Shown: in pieces, positions 2,593 to 13,336 of the stretch
Layout of the letters: the number at the start of each line of letters is the position of its first letter
Position numbering within the stretch: the first letter of the stretch is position 1
NCBI GenBank assembly: GCA_028293265.1
Contig: JAQGPB010000212.1
Span: 1-13,336, forward strand
Source of the DNA: Pedosphaera sp.
Lineage (GTDB): Bacteria > Verrucomicrobiota > Verrucomicrobiae > Limisphaerales > Pedosphaeraceae
Reading direction: 5' to 3'
DNA length: 13,336 bases
The notes under the pieces: model-generated
Told to the model about the DNA's origin: nothing
What the model saw: the letters and a program-made list of their open reading frames with translations, nothing else
Database searches by the model: none
Program-made: the position numbers and the translations under genes

Positions 2593-2618
2593 CATCCTGC
2601 TTTTCACCCGGCAGGATG
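2593..2618 (+). promoter_or_regulatory. Start-codon hairpin of the FN3 gene
   Basis: CATCCTGC (2593-2600) and GCAGGATG (2611-2618) are a perfect 8-base inverted repeat with a 10-base loop. The last three bases of the right arm are the ATG start codon of the following gene, and the GCAGG next to it is the only purine-rich stretch resembling a ribosome site. In RNA the hairpin would hide the initiation region. The pairing is seen directly; a role in translational control is inference. Confidence 0.35.
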
Positions 2619-3311
2619 ACAAAAGTATTTGTAAACGGGCCGGCAAAGCCGGCTTCGATCACGCAATTCGTGTATCTGTGCCTGGTCGCGATATGGATTT
2701 CCTGCTGCGCCGCCGCCCGGGGCCAGACAGCGGCCACGCTCGGCTGGACTGCTCCGCCTGATGCCTCCGTGACTGGTTTCTATCTTTACTACGGCAACGC
2801 AAGCCAGATGCTTTCCACCAAGGTGGATGTCGGCACCAACACGATGTTCACCATCACGGGCCTGACGCTGGGCACGAACTATTTTTTCGCCGTTTCAAGT
2901 TACGGAGCAGACGGACTGGAGAGCGCGCTTTCCACGGAAGTACAGCTTACGGTGCCCTTCACCATGTTTTTTAACGGCAATGCCAGCCTGGGCAGCGGTG
3001 TGGAATACTTGGAGTTCCCGGATCAGGTTGTTTTTGGATACTACGATCAAACGGGCTACCCGTGGGTCTATCACTTTGACATGGGATTCGAGTATGTGAT
3101 CAATGCCGGCGACCAGCAGGGCTCGGTCTATCTCTACGACAATAGCAGCCAAAGCTTTTGGTTCACCAGCCCGGCGCTCTTTCCCTATCTTTACGACTTC
3201 AAGCTGAATTCCTGGATTTACTATTACGCGGACACCACGAAACCCGGCCGCTACACTTCCAATCCTCGATACTTCTACGACTTTAACCTGGCCCAGGTCA
3301 TCACAAAATAA
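2616..3311 (+). CDS. Secreted fibronectin type III protein with Tyr/Phe-rich C-terminal domain
   Basis: The product is 231 residues. An N-terminal stretch with Lys at 3 and 11 is followed by a hydrophobic segment (about 17-34) and AAARGQ, which reads as a signal peptide, so export is expected. Residues about 39-113 form one fibronectin type III domain: LGWTAPPDASVTGFYLYYG near the start, TITGLTLGTNYFFAVSSY at 78-95 and ESALSTEVQLTV at its end. The remaining ~118 residues are strikingly aromatic, with repeated units of the style VFGYYDQTGYPWVYHF, SVYLYDNSSQSFWFTSP and PYLYDFKLNSWIYYY. I recall similar aromatic tails in secreted verrucomicrobial proteins of unknown function. No catalytic motif is seen. 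The alternative GTG start at 2670 would remove the positively charged N-region, so ATG is preferred. The gene is isolated, with a long upstream region and repeats downstream. A binding or structural role at the cell surface is a guess. Confidence 0.65.
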   Translation: MTKVFVNGPAKPASITQFVYLCLVAIWISCCAAARGQTAATLGWTAPPDASVTGFYLYYGNASQMLSTKVDVGTNTMFTITGLTLGTNYFFAVSSYGADGLESALSTEVQLTVPFTMFFNGNASLGSGVEYLEFPDQVVFGYYDQTGYPWVYHFDMGFEYVINAGDQQGSVYLYDNSSQSFWFTSPALFPYLYDFKLNSWIYYYADTTKPGRYTSNPRYFYDFNLAQVITK

Positions 3312-7719: not shown

Positions 7720-8667
7720 ATGCTGAAAGCCAGTTTCTCCGTCCTGTCGGTCCGCAATTTGGTGTCCGGTTTGTGCCTCTTGATTTTCTGGGCGAACCCG
7801 GTCCCGGCACAGACAAATGAAACCAATTCCGCCGATTACTCCTTCATGGTCGCCGGTGACATGCGCGGCTTTCTCACTTCGGACAAGCCGGGCAAGCGTT
7901 ATTTCGACGGCGCTTGCGAGGCGATGAAGCGGGTCGGCCCCGGCGCTTTCCTGCTCAGCCCTGGCGACTGCGATGCCGCCGCCGCCACCCGCGCGGTGAT
8001 GGACCAATTTCTGGGCTCGAATTATCTCTGGTATCCGCTGGTGGGAAATCACGACGCCGAAAAGCCCGCGAACCTGGCCTGGTTCCATCAATGGGCCAAG
8101 GCGGGCATTCCGCACCTGGTGCGCTCCGGCCCCGCAGGCAGCGAAGAAACGACTTTCTCGTTCGATTACGGGAATTCGCATTTCATCTTGCTGGATGAAT
8201 ATTTTGATGGCCATGTCACCAGCGCGGCCAACTCCGCAGACATTGGCGGAACGACGCTCGCGTGGTTGGAACAGGACCTTGCCGCCACCCGGCAACCGGT
8301 CATCTGGGTGAGCGGCCACAAGCCAATCGAGTCGCTGCCGGACATGGACACCGGCTACGTCCGGCATGCCGGCGAATCCATCACCGCGAATGCCGTGCGG
8401 CGTGAGCAGTTTTTGGAATTGCTCCGGAAATATCATGTGCGTGGTTACATTTGCGGCCATACGCACAATTCTTCCATCGCCAAGGTCAAGGGCGTCTGGC
8501 AATTGGATTCCGGCCATTCCCGCGGGGGCCACATCAATCCCAAGACGGAATCTCCCAGCACGTTCCTCAAAGTGCACGTGACCGGGGCGCGGGTCGCGGT
8601 GGATGTTTACCGGGCGGACAACGATGGTTTGGAATACAAGCTCACGCGGACGGTGGTGGTGGAGTGA
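7720..8667 (+). CDS. Secreted calcineurin-like metallophosphoesterase
   Basis: The product is 315 residues. The N-terminus (K3, R12, then LVSGLCLLIFWANPVPAQ) reads as a signal peptide cleaved near residue 30, so export is expected. Metallophosphoesterase motifs appear in order: VAGDMRG at 44-50, SPGDCD at 80-85, GNHD at 109-112, SGHKP at 199-202 with H200, and GHTH at 236-239. The first motif is D-M-R instead of the usual D-x-H, so one metal ligand may be replaced; the others are intact. Substrate cannot be told from sequence: phosphomonoesters, nucleotides or phosphodiesters are all possible. AAGG lies 8 bases before the ATG, one of the few plausible ribosome sites here. The nuclease/phosphoesterase fusion gene follows 118 bases later on the same strand, suggesting a shared role in breaking down extracellular phosphate compounds. 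Confidence 0.85.
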   Translation: MLKASFSVLSVRNLVSGLCLLIFWANPVPAQTNETNSADYSFMVAGDMRGFLTSDKPGKRYFDGACEAMKRVGPGAFLLSPGDCDAAAATRAVMDQFLGSNYLWYPLVGNHDAEKPANLAWFHQWAKAGIPHLVRSGPAGSEETTFSFDYGNSHFILLDEYFDGHVTSAANSADIGGTTLAWLEQDLAATRQPVIWVSGHKPIESLPDMDTGYVRHAGESITANAVRREQFLELLRKYHVRGYICGHTHNSSIAKVKGVWQLDSGHSRGGHINPKTESPSTFLKVHVTGARVAVDVYRADNDGLEYKLTRTVVVE

Positions 8668-8785: not shown

Positions 8786-11700
8786 GTGCAAAAAATCCTT
8801 TCCGTTCTCGTGGGCGCCTCGGCGCTTTTTCTGGCCATCTTTCCGGCGCATGGTTACATCGGCACCGGCTACCAACTGCAATTGGGGAACCCCAGCAATG
8901 CGACCGCCGACACCAACAACCACGATCATTACCTGATTCAACGCACCGTCGAGGCTTTGGATTACAGCGACAATCTGGGGGAGCCGGTCTGGGCAAGCTG
9001 GGATTTGACGCCGGGTGACATCGGTTCAAGCGGCCGCTCCGGTTCATTCTTCACGGACACCAACCTGCCGCCGGATTTTTACGAGGTGACCGACACTGAT
9101 TACAACGGAGTGGGGAGCATCAATTTCAACCGCGGCCACCTCTGCCCGTCGGAGGACCGGACCGACAACACAACCGACAATGATCTGGTGTTTTTCATGT
9201 CCAACATCATGCCCCAGGCGGCGAACAACAATCAGGGCGTGTGGGGAAATCTGGAGAACGATTGCCGCTCGTTTGCACAAGCCGGCAACGAACTGCTGAT
9301 TTTCTGCGGGCCGAGCGGCTTCGGCCCCAACCGCATTCCGAGCGGCAAGGCGGTCATTGCCGACTACACGTGGAAAATCGCGGTGGTGGTTCCCAGCGGG
9401 ACGAACAGTACGTTGAACCGCATCAACGCCGCGACGCGTGTCATCGCGGTGAAGATTCCCAACAACAATTCGGTGACTACTGCGTGGCAGAGTTATGTCA
9501 CCAACGCCGCTCAGATCGAGGCGGATACGGGCTTCAAATTCTTCACAGCGCTGCCCGCGCCGGTCGCGTCGGCGTTGCGTTACAAGGTGGACGGCCAGAC
9601 GGCGCCCGCGCCGGTCATCAGCAACTTTTCGCCCGCGAGCGGCACGGTGGGAAGCAGCGTGGTGATCACCGGCACAAATTTTGGTTCGGCTTTGTCAGTG
9701 TCGTTCAACGGCATGAGCGCGGCTTACTCGGTGGATTCCGCCGGACAGATCACTGCGCAGGTGCCGACCAATGCGACGGCCGGCCACATCAGCGTCGCGA
9801 CCGCTTCCGGCGTAGCGGCAAGTTCCGGAAACTTCACGCCGCTGGGCGTCGGTTTGCAGGGTATTCAGACCGTGTTCATCATACTGATGGAGAATCACAA
9901 TTGGTCGGAAATCAAGGGAAGTGCCTCCGCGCCCTACATCAACAACACGCTGCTGCCGATGGCGTCGCACGCGGAGCAATACTACAATCCACCGGGCATT
10001 CATCCGAGCCTGCCCAATTATCTCTGGCTGGAAGCTGGGACGAATTATGGCATTGCGGACGATAATGACCCCGCCATCAACCACCAGGGCACGACCAATC
10101 ATCTGGTCGCCTATCTGAGAAAAGCCGGCATCTCCTGGACCTCCTATCAGGAGGACATCAGCAGCAACGTCTGCCCGCTTACGTCGGTGAATCTCTACGC
10201 CCCCAAACACAATCCGATGGTGTATTTTGACGATGTCACCAGTTCAAACAGCAGCAGTTCGGCATACTGTATCGCCAATGTCCATCCCTTTTCGGAACTT
10301 GCCTCAGATCTTTCGAGCAACGCCGTCACACATTACAATTTCATCACGCCGAACCTATGCGACGACATGCATAATGCAAGTTGCGGCACCGGTGATTCCA
10401 TCAGGAATGGTGACAACTGGCTGGCTGCCAACCTGCCTGCGATTTTGAACTCCCAGGCTTATTCGAACAACGGCGTCGTTTTCGTCACCTGGGATGAATC
10501 GGAAACTGGCGATGGACCCATTGGCATGATCGTCCTTTCGCCGCTGGCCAAGAGCGGCTACTCCAACGCTGTTCATTACACTCACAGTTCCACATTGCGG
10601 ACGATCCAGGAAATTTTCAATGTCACGCCCTTCCTCGGTGATGCCGTGAATGCGACTGATTTGAGCGCCCTCTTTAACCTGAACACTCCCTCGCTGCTCT
10701 CCGTCAGCCCCGCGGCGGGATTGACTTCGAGCGGGCCGGTTGGCGGACCGTTCACCCCGGGCGTCCAAAATTACGTGCTTACAAACACGGGTGGAATCGC
10801 GCTGAATTGGACGGCGTCCAGTCTCTCCAATTGGCTGACGGTCTTGCCCATGGCGGGCACCCTGACTGCCGGCTCGAACATCACTGTCACGGTCTCCATC
10901 AATACGAATGCAAATGCTCTGGCGGGGGGCGCGTATGCGGACACCGTCTCGTTCAGCAACACTTCCACCGGCGCGGGCAGCACTACGCGCGCGGTCAACC
11001 TCACGGTGGCGGGGTCGCCGACGGTTGACCTGGGCATTTCTGCAACGCACAGCGGCAGCTTTACGCAGGGCGACGCGGCGGACGTTTATTCCATCATCGT
11101 CACCAACCTCGGCACGCTCGCTTCGAGCGGGACGATCACCGTGACCGATGCTTTGCCGGCCGGACTGACGGCGACGGCTATCAGCGGAAGCGGTTGGACA
11201 ACGAACCTGGCGACGCTCACCTGCACGCGTTCCGACAGTCTGGCGGCGGGCGCGAGTTATCCGCCGATCACCATCACCGTGAGCGTGGCGACCAATGCCC
11301 CGGCCCTGGTAACGAACGCCGCCACGGTTTCGGGCGGGGGCGACGCGAACGTTGACAATAATGTCGCGAATGATCCGACCGCCATCAACACCCCGGGCGG
11401 CGTGACGGGAGTTCTCGCGGGTTGGAACATGAATGGATTGACGGCTTATGGACCTTCGCCATTCGCGCCCACAAATATCGCGGCCAATCTCACGGTCGTA
11501 GGGTTGACGCGCGCGGCCGGGATTGGCACGAGTGGCACGGCGGCGGCGCGCGCTTGGGGCGGAAACGACTTTGTGGATACCACCTCTGCATTGGCCATCT
11601 CCAACAATCATTACGCGACCTTCACGATCACGGCGAACAACGGCTATAAAGTTTCCTTTGGCGCGGTGAGCCCGTTCAATTACCGGCGTTCCGGGACGGG

Positions 11701-12364
11701 ACCGATCAGCGGTTTGTTGCAATACCGGATTGGCGCAGGGGCGTTCTCGGACATTGCAACGGTTTCTTACAGCGTCTCCACGAGCGGCGGTGCATCGTTG
11801 GGACCGATTGATCTTTCCGGAATTGACGCGCTGCAAAACATCGGCGCCGGAACGAACGTCACGTTCCGCATCGTGAACTGGGGTGCGACCGGTTCCACCG
11901 GCACGTGGTACATTTATGATATGAATACCAACGCCGCGCTGGACTTCGCAGTTCAGGGAACCGTCACCTCCGCGTTGACGTTGACACCCATTCAATCCTG
12001 GCGGCAGCAATGGTTTGGCACCGCCGCCAACAGCGGCGCAGCGGCCGACACCGCCATCGCCACCAGCGACGGCATGCCCAACCTGCTCAAATATGCCCTC
12101 GGGCTGAACCCGTTCACGCCAGCGACCAATCCCGTGGTGGGCGACATTTCCACCGGATATCTGCGCCTCACCTCGCCCAAAAATCCGAATGCGACCGATG
12201 TCAGTTTTTTTGTGGAGCTGAGCAGCGCATTGCCGGGTCAGAGCTGGACGACAAATGGAACCATCATTGACCAGAACACTTCAACCTTGCTCCAAGCCCA
12301 CGACGCGCAGCCGATCCACTCTTCCACCAACGGCTACTTGCGGCTGCGAGTCAGCGATCCTTAG
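8786..12364 (+). CDS. Secreted multidomain NUC1 nuclease / PF04185-type phosphoesterase fusion
   Basis: The product is 1192 residues from GTG 8786, chosen because it begins with a good signal peptide (MQKILSV, then hydrophobic to FPAHG, 1-23). The frame opens at TTG 8720, and there is no ATG. Domains in order: DNA/RNA non-specific endonuclease (~45-268) with NRGH (H118), N149 in NNNQGVW and E157, corresponding to His89, Asn119 and Glu127 of Serratia nuclease; IPT/TIG (~272-352); phosphoesterase of the phospholipase C/acid phosphatase superfamily (~360-632) with MENHNW (368-373), HPSLPNYL, LCDDMH (D526, D527, H529) and TWDE (D570); BACON-like sandwich (~635-745); DUF11-like repeat (~746-868); a further beta-rich domain (~872-1063); and a tail with DGMPNLLKYALGLNP (~1093-1107), typical of exported verrucomicrobial proteins. 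Catalytic residues look complete in both enzymes. Likely role: degrading extracellular DNA/RNA and releasing phosphate (inferred). Confidence 0.85.
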   Translation: MQKILSVLVGASALFLAIFPAHGYIGTGYQLQLGNPSNATADTNNHDHYLIQRTVEALDYSDNLGEPVWASWDLTPGDIGSSGRSGSFFTDTNLPPDFYEVTDTDYNGVGSINFNRGHLCPSEDRTDNTTDNDLVFFMSNIMPQAANNNQGVWGNLENDCRSFAQAGNELLIFCGPSGFGPNRIPSGKAVIADYTWKIAVVVPSGTNSTLNRINAATRVIAVKIPNNNSVTTAWQSYVTNAAQIEADTGFKFFTALPAPVASALRYKVDGQTAPAPVISNFSPASGTVGSSVVITGTNFGSALSVSFNGMSAAYSVDSAGQITAQVPTNATAGHISVATASGVAASSGNFTPLGVGLQGIQTVFIILMENHNWSEIKGSASAPYINNTLLPMASHAEQYYNPPGIHPSLPNYLWLEAGTNYGIADDNDPAINHQGTTNHLVAYLRKAGISWTSYQEDISSNVCPLTSVNLYAPKHNPMVYFDDVTSSNSSSSAYCIANVHPFSELASDLSSNAVTHYNFITPNLCDDMHNASCGTGDSIRNGDNWLAANLPAILNSQAYSNNGVVFVTWDESETGDGPIGMIVLSPLAKSGYSNAVHYTHSSTLRTIQEIFNVTPFLGDAVNATDLSALFNLNTPSLLSVSPAAGLTSSGPVGGPFTPGVQNYVLTNTGGIALNWTASSLSNWLTVLPMAGTLTAGSNITVTVSINTNANALAGGAYADTVSFSNTSTGAGSTTRAVNLTVAGSPTVDLGISATHSGSFTQGDAADVYSIIVTNLGTLASSGTITVTDALPAGLTATAISGSGWTTNLATLTCTRSDSLAAGASYPPITITVSVATNAPALVTNAATVSGGGDANVDNNVANDPTAINTPGGVTGVLAGWNMNGLTAYGPSPFAPTNIAANLTVVGLTRAAGIGTSGTAAARAWGGNDFVDTTSALAISNNHYATFTITANNGYKVSFGAVSPFNYRRSGTGPISGLLQYRIGAGAFSDIATVSYSVSTSGGASLGPIDLSGIDALQNIGAGTNVTFRIVNWGATGSTGTWYIYDMNTNAALDFAVQGTVTSALTLTPIQSWRQQWFGTAANSGAAADTAIATSDGMPNLLKYALGLNPFTPATNPVVGDISTGYLRLTSPKNPNATDVSFFVELSSALPGQSWTTNGTIIDQNTSTLLQAHDAQPIHSSTNGYLRLRVSDP

Positions 12365-12472: not shown

Positions 12473-12548
12473 GCCTCCGTAGCTCAAATGGATAGAGCAG
12501 CGGTTTCCTAAACCGTTGATCCCGGTTCAATTCCGGGCGGGGGTACCA
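12473..12548 (+). tRNA. tRNA-Arg (anticodon CCT)
   Basis: A 76-base cloverleaf. The acceptor strand GCCTCCG pairs with CGGGGGT (two G-U pairs), followed by A73 and an encoded CCA. TA at positions 8-9 is followed by the D arm GCTC...GAGC. The anticodon stem GCGGT/ACCGT holds the loop TTCCTAA, anticodon CCT at 12507-12509. The T arm is CCCGG-TTCAATT-CCGGG. It would read AGG codons. An integrase gene begins 106 bases downstream, making the 3' half of this tRNA a likely attachment site. Confidence 0.95.
12524..12548. other. Probable attachment site core (tRNA 3' end)
   Basis: The T arm and acceptor end of tRNA-Arg lie next to a tyrosine integrase gene pointing away from the tRNA. Tyrosine integrases of islands and phages commonly use the last 15-50 bases of tRNA genes as att sites, leaving the tRNA intact. 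A second copy would mark the far end of the element; none is inside this window, so the core length is a guess. Confidence 0.45.
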
Positions 12549-12653: not shown

Positions 12654-13336
12654 ATGTCGCGCAAATCAAAAAAGCGTCAATGGCCCAATGTTTACGAGCG
12701 GGAGCATCGCAGCGGTGAGGCCAGTTTTGTGGTTGATCTTGGGCTGGTCAATGGTAAGCGCGAGCGCCACTCGTTCACCGACAAAGCCAGTGCTAATACA
12801 TTTGCCGAACAGAAACGGGTGGAGCGCCTGAACGAGGGCACGGCAGCATTGGGTTTGAGCCGGGAGACCCGTTCGGATGCCGCCAAAGCAGAAAAGTTGT
12901 TGAAACCCCATGGTGTGACGCTGGAGGAGAGTGCCAAATATTACCTCAAGCACGTCATTTCTTTTAGGAATGCGCCCACGGTTGACCAGATCATTGACAA
13001 AATGGTTGCGGAGGCAGAACAAAACAATCGCCGGGATCGCACCGTCTTGGATTTGAAGAATCGGTGCAAGGTGTTTTCTGAGGATTTCCCCAATACCCGT
13101 CTTAGTGAAATCAGCCTGGATGAACTCAAGGAATGGTTTGCCGAAGCTGATGATTGGGCTCCCAGGACCAAAATCAACTACCTGACGAAGATCTCCCAGC
13201 TTTACAATTACGCCCTGAAGCACAACTGGGTGGATTCCAATCTAGTTGAGCGGATTGACCGGCCAAACGCGGAAGATAAAGAACCGGGCATTTTTGCGGT
13301 GGATCAGGCAGCGGAACTTTTGGAACATGCGGATCA
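12654..13336 (+). CDS. Tyrosine recombinase (phage-type integrase), 3' partial
   Basis: The frame starts at ATG 12654 and stays open to the window end, 227 codons seen. The N-terminus is basic (MSRKSKKRQWPNVYEREHRS) and continues as a beta-rich segment (ASFVVDLGLVNGKRERHSFT) that suits an arm-type DNA-binding domain. Residues about 110-205 are helical, with SLDELKEWFAEA, WAPRTKINYLTKISQLYNYA and WVDSNLVERIDRPN, the familiar pattern of the SAM-like core-binding domain ahead of the catalytic domain. The catalytic R...HxxR...Y residues would follow FAVDQAAELLEHAD and lie outside the window. GC content here is visibly lower (about 50% in one line counted) than in the nuclease gene (over 70% in one line counted), in keeping with acquired DNA. 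Just upstream are the repeats GCGTGAC (12620-12626 and 12631-12637), possible integrase or regulator sites. It likely inserted its element at the adjacent tRNA-Arg. Confidence 0.85.
   Translation, partial: MSRKSKKRQWPNVYEREHRSGEASFVVDLGLVNGKRERHSFTDKASANTFAEQKRVERLNEGTAALGLSRETRSDAAKAEKLLKPHGVTLEESAKYYLKHVISFRNAPTVDQIIDKMVAEAEQNNRRDRTVLDLKNRCKVFSEDFPNTRLSEISLDELKEWFAEADDWAPRTKINYLTKISQLYNYALKHNWVDSNLVERIDRPNAEDKEPGIFAVDQAAELLEHAD

Follow-up and report, generated by a model that had tools for sequence, protein, structure and literature searches.

A candidate exported nuclease-phosphoesterase chain of Pedosphaera sp. that may mine phosphate from environmental nucleic acids

An apparently exported chain that carries two unrelated hydrolases raises the question of whether both act on the same substrate, and of how they came to be joined. 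Such a chain is encoded in a stretch of 13,336 nucleotides from Pedosphaera sp., analysed as a whole and called here the window. A single stop-free plus-strand ORF, with in-frame starts at TTG 8720 and GTG 8786 and its stop ending at 12364, gives from the GTG a protein of 1192 aa (P0001), and the database copy of this same protein (P0002, 1184 aa) starts a few codons downstream. The longer TTG start is possible, since the residues encoded 5' of 8786 look, by eye, like the N-terminus of the related protein P0008. The original prediction had placed at 8786..12364 a fusion of a NUC1 nuclease, an IPT domain and a PF04185-type phosphoesterase, with beta modules behind them, and both its coordinates and its frame are right: the Pfam models PF01223, TIG/IPT, PF04185 and BACON_2 follow in the claimed order, all four above their curated cut-offs, with no frameshift or stop between domains in the ORF. 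The features are as follows.

8786..8854, plus strand: signal-peptide-like start (residues 1-23 from the GTG; translation inspected by eye)
8870..9601, plus strand: NUC1 / Endonuclease_NS domain (residues 29-272; PF01223, PDB matches and alignment A5)
9611..9832, plus strand: IPT/TIG domain (residues 276-349; TIG E 2.2e-8)
9845..11008, plus strand: putative inserted cassette, phosphoesterase plus BACON_2 (about residues 354-741; from the P0008 alignment)
9857..10684, plus strand: PF04185 phosphoesterase (residues 358-633; E369, N370, S408, H475, H529, D570, E571)
10775..10987, plus strand: BACON_2 beta domain (residues 664-734; PF19190 E 8.7e-9)
11021..12361, plus strand: C-terminal scaffold modules CT1 (746-880), CT2 (881-1090) and CT3 (1091-1192)

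By inspection, the N-terminus shows a basic start, a hydrophobic core and small residues preceding Y24, an export-type beginning that agrees with the exported chain predicted earlier. The PF01223 match that follows covers residues 46-257 (E 9.8e-37, 127.2 bits against a cut-off of 23; profile positions 14-221 of 223). Among chains of known structure, the nearest in sequence are 2o3b and 1zm8 (163.8 and 163.4 bits, query residues 30-269), which carry the database label 'Nuclease' and which we take to be NucA of Anabaena; mitochondrial EXOG and EndoG rank behind them. The PF01223 motif consists of the histidine of RGH, the metal Asn and a Glu eight residues on, and P0001 has all of these (N115-R116-G117-H118, N149 and E157, as predicted) together with R161. 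While DRGH is often found in NUC1-type enzymes, both DRGH and NRGH are seen among the relatives, and NRGH is a natural variant, as it is common to several of them in alignment A5 (P0003, P0008, P0012, P0037, P0043, P0050, P0060 and P0108). Like NucA, P0001 matches across the whole domain and has the H, N, E and R set, but its nuclease is fused to IPT, phosphoesterase and beta modules and has the N before RGH that it shares with those relatives.

The PF04185 match covers residues 404-613 (E 5.3e-27, 95.3 bits against a cut-off of 23; profile positions 127-355 of 356), and the E-N motif that precedes it is confirmed by alignment. E369, N370, S408, H475, H529, D570 and E571 are invariant in 46 of 46 aligned sequences and follow the order given for SapM in the source text available. 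The motifs predicted for this domain are in place (E369-N370, C525-D-D-M-H529, D570-E571), and S408 (in HPSLPNY), absent from that earlier list, is the expected nucleophile. The predicted structure has an alkaline-phosphatase-like fold. Pfam and the catalytic residues bear out two complete, unrelated catalytic domains; as for structure prediction of the two active sites, that of PF04185 is upheld by predicted fold and residue conservation, while that of NUC1 is judged from sequence, because the joint NUC1-IPT-PF04185 model (alignment A2) was poor (pLDDT 55.6, perhaps owing to misaligned tails) and was left out of the fold search. AcpA is 20% identical to the P0001 phosphoesterase in the structural alignment and ties in fold score with RePLC, with phospholipases C nearly as high; the predicted fold fits phosphomonoesterases and phospholipases C alike. 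The domain is shorter (about 280 aa) than the AcpA chains (472-481 residues) and, unlike AcpA and SapM, sits within a multi-enzyme chain. In the text available of a 5'-nucleotidase review, the substrates of the PF04185 enzyme AcpA are NMP, NTP, NDP and others (PMC8475336).

The reading that we favour, with a probability of about 0.58, is that P0001 is an exported two-enzyme chain that mines phosphate, along with nucleosides, from environmental DNA and RNA, and that it arose by cassette insertion. The NUC1 domain would cut nucleic acid without sequence preference by a NucA-type His/Asn-metal mechanism and, as NUC1 enzymes yield 5'-phosphorylated pieces, would leave fragments of that kind. PF04185, acting like AcpA and SapM as a metal phosphatase with a Ser nucleophile, would then strip phosphate from these products, a step performed elsewhere by separate nucleotidases, and the IPT and BACON domains may serve as spacers or sticky modules by which both active sites stay together on the secreted chain. 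Nucleotide dephosphorylation is described as critical, membranes being impermeable to nucleotides, in the part of the source available (PMC8289736). A screen of soil for phosphatase activity gave Pho09C, a possible member of the window-type PF04185 subfamily, which bears no no-activity mark and whose nearest match is an 'alkaline phosphatase family protein' of Pedosphaera parvula (PMC6355987).

The principle of nuclease plus phosphatase has precedents in YhcR and EddA/EddB; by sequence membership P0001 belongs to PF01223 and PF04185, and by analogy it would work like these systems while being a member of neither. YhcR of B. subtilis is like P0001 one exported chain with a non-specific nuclease, but its domain families are unrelated to those of P0001, in which a Pfam scan at E 0.1 detects PF01223, PF04185, TIG and BACON models only, and neither a staphylococcal nuclease nor a 5'-nucleotidase domain. 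YhcR also has a sortase-type sorting signal, whereas P0001 lacks an LPXTG-like motif followed by a hydrophobic stretch. According to the available portions of the sources, YhcR combines a nuclease and an apparent 5'-nucleotidase in one chain (PMC3222306), has thermonuclease-type homology (PMC3929857), and is raised under phosphate limitation, where it helps to reclaim eDNA phosphate (PMC11458576). EddA and EddB of P. aeruginosa, a secreted nuclease and an alkaline phosphatase/phosphodiesterase encoded in an eDNA-induced operon in the account available (PMC9294136), are two separate proteins, whereas P0001 is one chain and not a pair of adjacent genes; their arrangement is closer to a gene pair at locus L013, described below, than to the window. 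Modular and secreted, ExeM belongs with the EEP nucleases that have OB modules and a lamin tail domain (LTD); LTD is found in P0003 too, but the nuclease of ExeM is EEP, not NUC1, and the available text mentions no phosphatase partner (PMC6085458). The suggestion that the architecture was undescribed agrees with the literature searched, outside which most subscription journals lie: in the texts available from it, no paper names PF01223 and PF04185 together and none describes a NUC1-PF04185 fusion.

The earlier idea of a polymer cutter followed by a product handler is supported by sequence comparison, and it is strengthened by the existence of PF04185-NUC1 proteins in both orders, of PF04185-EEP-like fusions and of the L013 gene pair. 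Among the best 120 of 456 matches to the phosphoesterase part (lengths limited by the query; 119 besides the window's own), 6 of 119 relatives have a NUC1 partner and 33 an EEP-like one, giving 39 with a nuclease-type partner, which are not independent events. A further 14 carry another N-terminal domain, tentatively called OB-like, five carry GH99, and 61 have no catalytic partner by Pfam lists or our own profiles. The number of EEP-like relatives depends in part on judgement, comprising 30 found by our own profile (built on P0072, P0074 and P0090) and three by motif (P0194, P0203 and P0208); all three searched EEP motif strings are present in 21 of the 33. Pfam backs EEP in nine (P0072, P0074, P0090 and P0154, plus P0153, P0178, P0182, P0199 and P0207, for which the precomputed list was used), finds P0096 below its cut-off (22.1 against 24.5 bits), and gives no EEP in P0066, P0079, P0137, P0186, P0203, P0145 or P0194; P0079 and P0186 have partial EEP-like domains only.

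The reverse order, PF04185 then NUC1, occurs in P0007, P0010 and P0011 and in the partial P0211 and P0212, and close unfused relatives of both halves of these proteins are named Kofleriaceae. In P0246 the PF04185 domain precedes an EEP domain; in P0035 it is NUC1 that precedes a domain scored as EEP-like by profile, where Pfam finds NUC1, TIG and LTD only. At L013 (Spartobacteria), there lies downstream of a PF04185 gene, and on its strand, a gene whose product we call EEP-like because its domain is 71-79% identical to the pre-PF04185 domain of P0055, P0119, P0168, P0191, P0194, P0203 and P0208 (78-79% for P0203, P0208, P0055 and P0194) and contains the YNI, GDWN and SDH strings; Pfam there finds dockerin only, and our three-sequence EEP profile gave no match. 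Source names of such proteins are 'DNA/RNA endonuclease G (NUC1)', 'phosphatidylinositol-3-phosphatase', 'PKD repeat protein' and 'hypothetical protein'.

It could also be that the two hydrolases are independent and share a chain for delivery only, PF04185 acting on organic phosphate such as phospholipids or phytate and NUC1 on nucleic acids, so that the gain would be co-secretion or general necromass digestion with no substrate relay. The nearly level scores of same-fold phospholipases C and AcpA suit this explanation, as do the joining of the window-type PF04185 subfamily to GH99 or GH31 and the free exchange of BACON, IPT and Ig modules. Pho07, a phosphoesterase-family soil enzyme from the study that gave Pho09C and perhaps of the same subfamily as P0001, was most active on phytate among the substrates tested (PMC6355987). 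We nonetheless judge independent action unlikely, given the 39 of 119 relatives with nuclease-type partners (not independent events, and the 33 EEP-like ones mostly missed by Pfam) against five with GH99 among the best 120 of 456, and a PF04185 domain that is short like SapM and is followed by no PLC-type C-terminal domain.

Improbable in our view is a role in remodelling or detaching an eDNA-based matrix, or in clearing competitors' DNA, with phosphate release as a side effect: biofilm eDNA can be a substrate of secreted nucleases, according to the portions available of two sources (PMC6085458, PMC11458576), but matrix dispersal needs no phosphomonoesterase, and a Pfam scan of nine window proteins gave no pointer to a biofilm system. 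With regard to the neighbourhood, the gene 5' of the fusion (7720-8667) encodes a calcineurin-like phosphoesterase of a family other than PF04185; an operon of the two was rejected, as none of the 14 relatives' loci, several of them cut by contig ends, has a homologue, and no conserved neighbour gene was found in these loci. A search for a phosphate-starvation box with an E. coli-type pattern gave nothing above chance. An anti-phage role was set aside, PADLOC matching neither P0001 nor P0007, and the viral-contig locus L001, considered with regard to viral origin, holds a NUC1 ORF with no PF04185 in the stretch.

The favoured reading includes an origin by insertion, which is indicated by P0008 (821 aa, no phosphoesterase). 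This protein aligns to residues 1-353 of P0001 at 78% and to residues 738-1192 at 70%. Those fetched proteins that are related to the stretch from about residue 354 to 741 carry PF04185, and residues 641-745 match 54 fetched proteins, 54 of 54 with PF04185. The C-terminal modules, whose limits we set ourselves and which have no Pfam name at E 0.1, match instead NUC1 proteins lacking PF04185 (80 of 81 for CT1, 77 of 81 for CT2 and 47 of 48 for CT3, at E 1e-6 among fetched proteins). Because P0008 lacks the stretch between, and because cassette and flanking modules have different relatives, the simplest reading is that a ready-made phosphoesterase plus BACON cassette would have entered between the IPT and C-terminal modules of a common Verrucomicrobia secreted nuclease. 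Where an organism is given, the source names of such nucleases read Verrucomicrobiae or Pedosphaera. In NCBIfam, the IPT stretch also matches the 'choice-of-anchor Z' repeat, scoring 35.6 bits where the cut-off is 30. The earlier proposal that the tail holds the chain near the cell is not supported: the C-terminus (..GYLRLRVSDP) shows by inspection no LPXTG-, PEP-CTERM- or hydrophobic-helix-like end, and the modules of the tail are the ones seen in NUC1 proteins that lack PF04185.

Absence of the fusion from all relatives had been named as a refutation, but relatives do carry it: P0003 matches P0001 at 70% across 721 residues that span both catalytic domains and BACON, and P0004 and the fragment P0006 keep the domain order of P0001. 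An assembly misjoin of two genes, or a decayed fusion with one dead site, is very improbable, for although the window comes from one record of 13.3 kb and P0006, P0211 and P0212 are partial, P0003 and P0004 (longest contigs of 116 kb and 64 kb, respectively) are collinear with P0001, the former speaking strongly against a misjoin, and the catalytic residues are kept.

The NUC1 fusion is rare, as none of 80 genome loci (kept from 136 relatives) has NUC1 in the fetched stretch and no match spans both halves in 384 class genomes. In two of these loci (L004 and L005, Pfam EEP being found in L005 but not in L004) an EEP-like domain lies in the same ORF. The class-genome scan, in which at most three candidates per genome were scored, gave a match in 44 of 384 genomes, with none of the 44 spanning both halves. 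In 9 of the 44 (G093 among these nine being counted on a weak NUC1 match, 2e-23) the two halves are present on different contigs, and an origin from two once-adjacent genes is not supported for the NUC1 case.

Trees of the two halves (199 rows for PF04185, by a quick method, and 113 rows for NUC1; P0002 and P0006 left out) bear on the number of origins. In the PF04185 tree, P0001, P0003 and P0004 lie inside a 67-row clade (99), with P0004 deeper and beside P0064, and the reverse-order P0007, P0010 and P0011 fall well away from these three, in a group shared with unfused proteins (96). In the NUC1 tree, P0001 pairs with P0008 (98/98), P0003 with P0033, P0056 and L082 (99/79), and P0004 with L093 (96/92), all of these partners being unfused. 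P0004 and L093 are long branches. A tree constrained to unite P0001, P0003 and P0004 is rejected (AU p 0.0076), and one that unites P0001 with P0003 is weakly rejected (p 0.026). Related bacteria seem to have made nuclease-phosphatase joins several separate times; cassette loss or recombination of the nuclease half could produce the same tree pattern.

More tentatively, and at somewhat less than even odds, these fusions may represent a recurrent design in Verrucomicrobiota and Myxococcota, in which PF04185 was joined independently to no fewer than two unrelated families of nucleases, NUC1 and EEP, and in both orders, to give one-chain enzymes with efficient tethered product transfer. Much of the phosphorus of dead cells lies in DNA and RNA, and in the known cases, as the sources available describe them, the phosphate-freeing step is mostly carried out by an enzyme separate from the secreted nuclease. 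If one chain does both steps and has been assembled repeatedly from different nucleases, this would indicate selection for extracellular coupling, and nuclease plus PF04185 would serve as a sequence marker in metagenomes for the trait of taking phosphate from nucleic acids. If true, the recurrent nuclease-PF04185 design would amount to a way of recycling organic phosphorus in soil that has so far gone unrecognised.

Ahead of the PF04185 phosphoesterase domain, the relatives P0063, P0064, P0109, P0143 and ten others have in common, over about 280-300 aa, another N-terminal domain, possibly OB-like by its look, which takes the place held elsewhere by the domain resembling nucleases of the EEP family (EEP-like). 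Proteins with the EEP-like domain and those of this group are intermixed in the PF04185 tree. The window's PF04185 subfamily is also joined to glycoside hydrolase modules, namely GH99 together with CBM96 in P0122, P0148, P0155, P0164 and P0195, and GH31 at one relative's locus:

L039:7695-12590, GH31 joined to the window's PF04185 subfamily

Around the nuclease gene of the window, the following features are found:

2616-3311, fibronectin type III protein of 231 aa
7720-8667, same strand as the nuclease gene and directly upstream of it, calcineurin-like metallophosphoesterase (PF00149, E 4.5e-9)
12473-12548, tRNA-Arg(CCT) gene, a short distance 3′ of the nuclease gene
12654-13334, past the tRNA gene, tyrosine-recombinase-like ORF extending beyond the window end

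The metallophosphoesterase has a signal-peptide-like start, and a homologue of it was found in none of the 14 related loci. The fibronectin type III protein displays a weak similarity to the purple acid phosphatase N-terminal domain (E 0.0062, below the cut-off). On the 3′ side, the tRNA gene and the recombinase-like ORF probably represent the edge of an integrative element located at the tRNA.

The EEP-like domain is also met with NUC1. In P0035 (1207 aa), NUC1 is followed by an EEP-like domain, and the protein also has IPT in four places, along with a lamin tail domain; it is possibly one exported chain with two unrelated nuclease-type domains. In a Spartobacteria genome, separate genes lie side by side:

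L013:7920-9335, PF04185 gene
L013:9529-11301, same strand, after the PF04185 gene, EEP-like gene

Pfam did not recognise EEP in the second gene. In this pair, the two parts that are joined in EEP-like-PF04185 proteins would be present as unfused neighbours.
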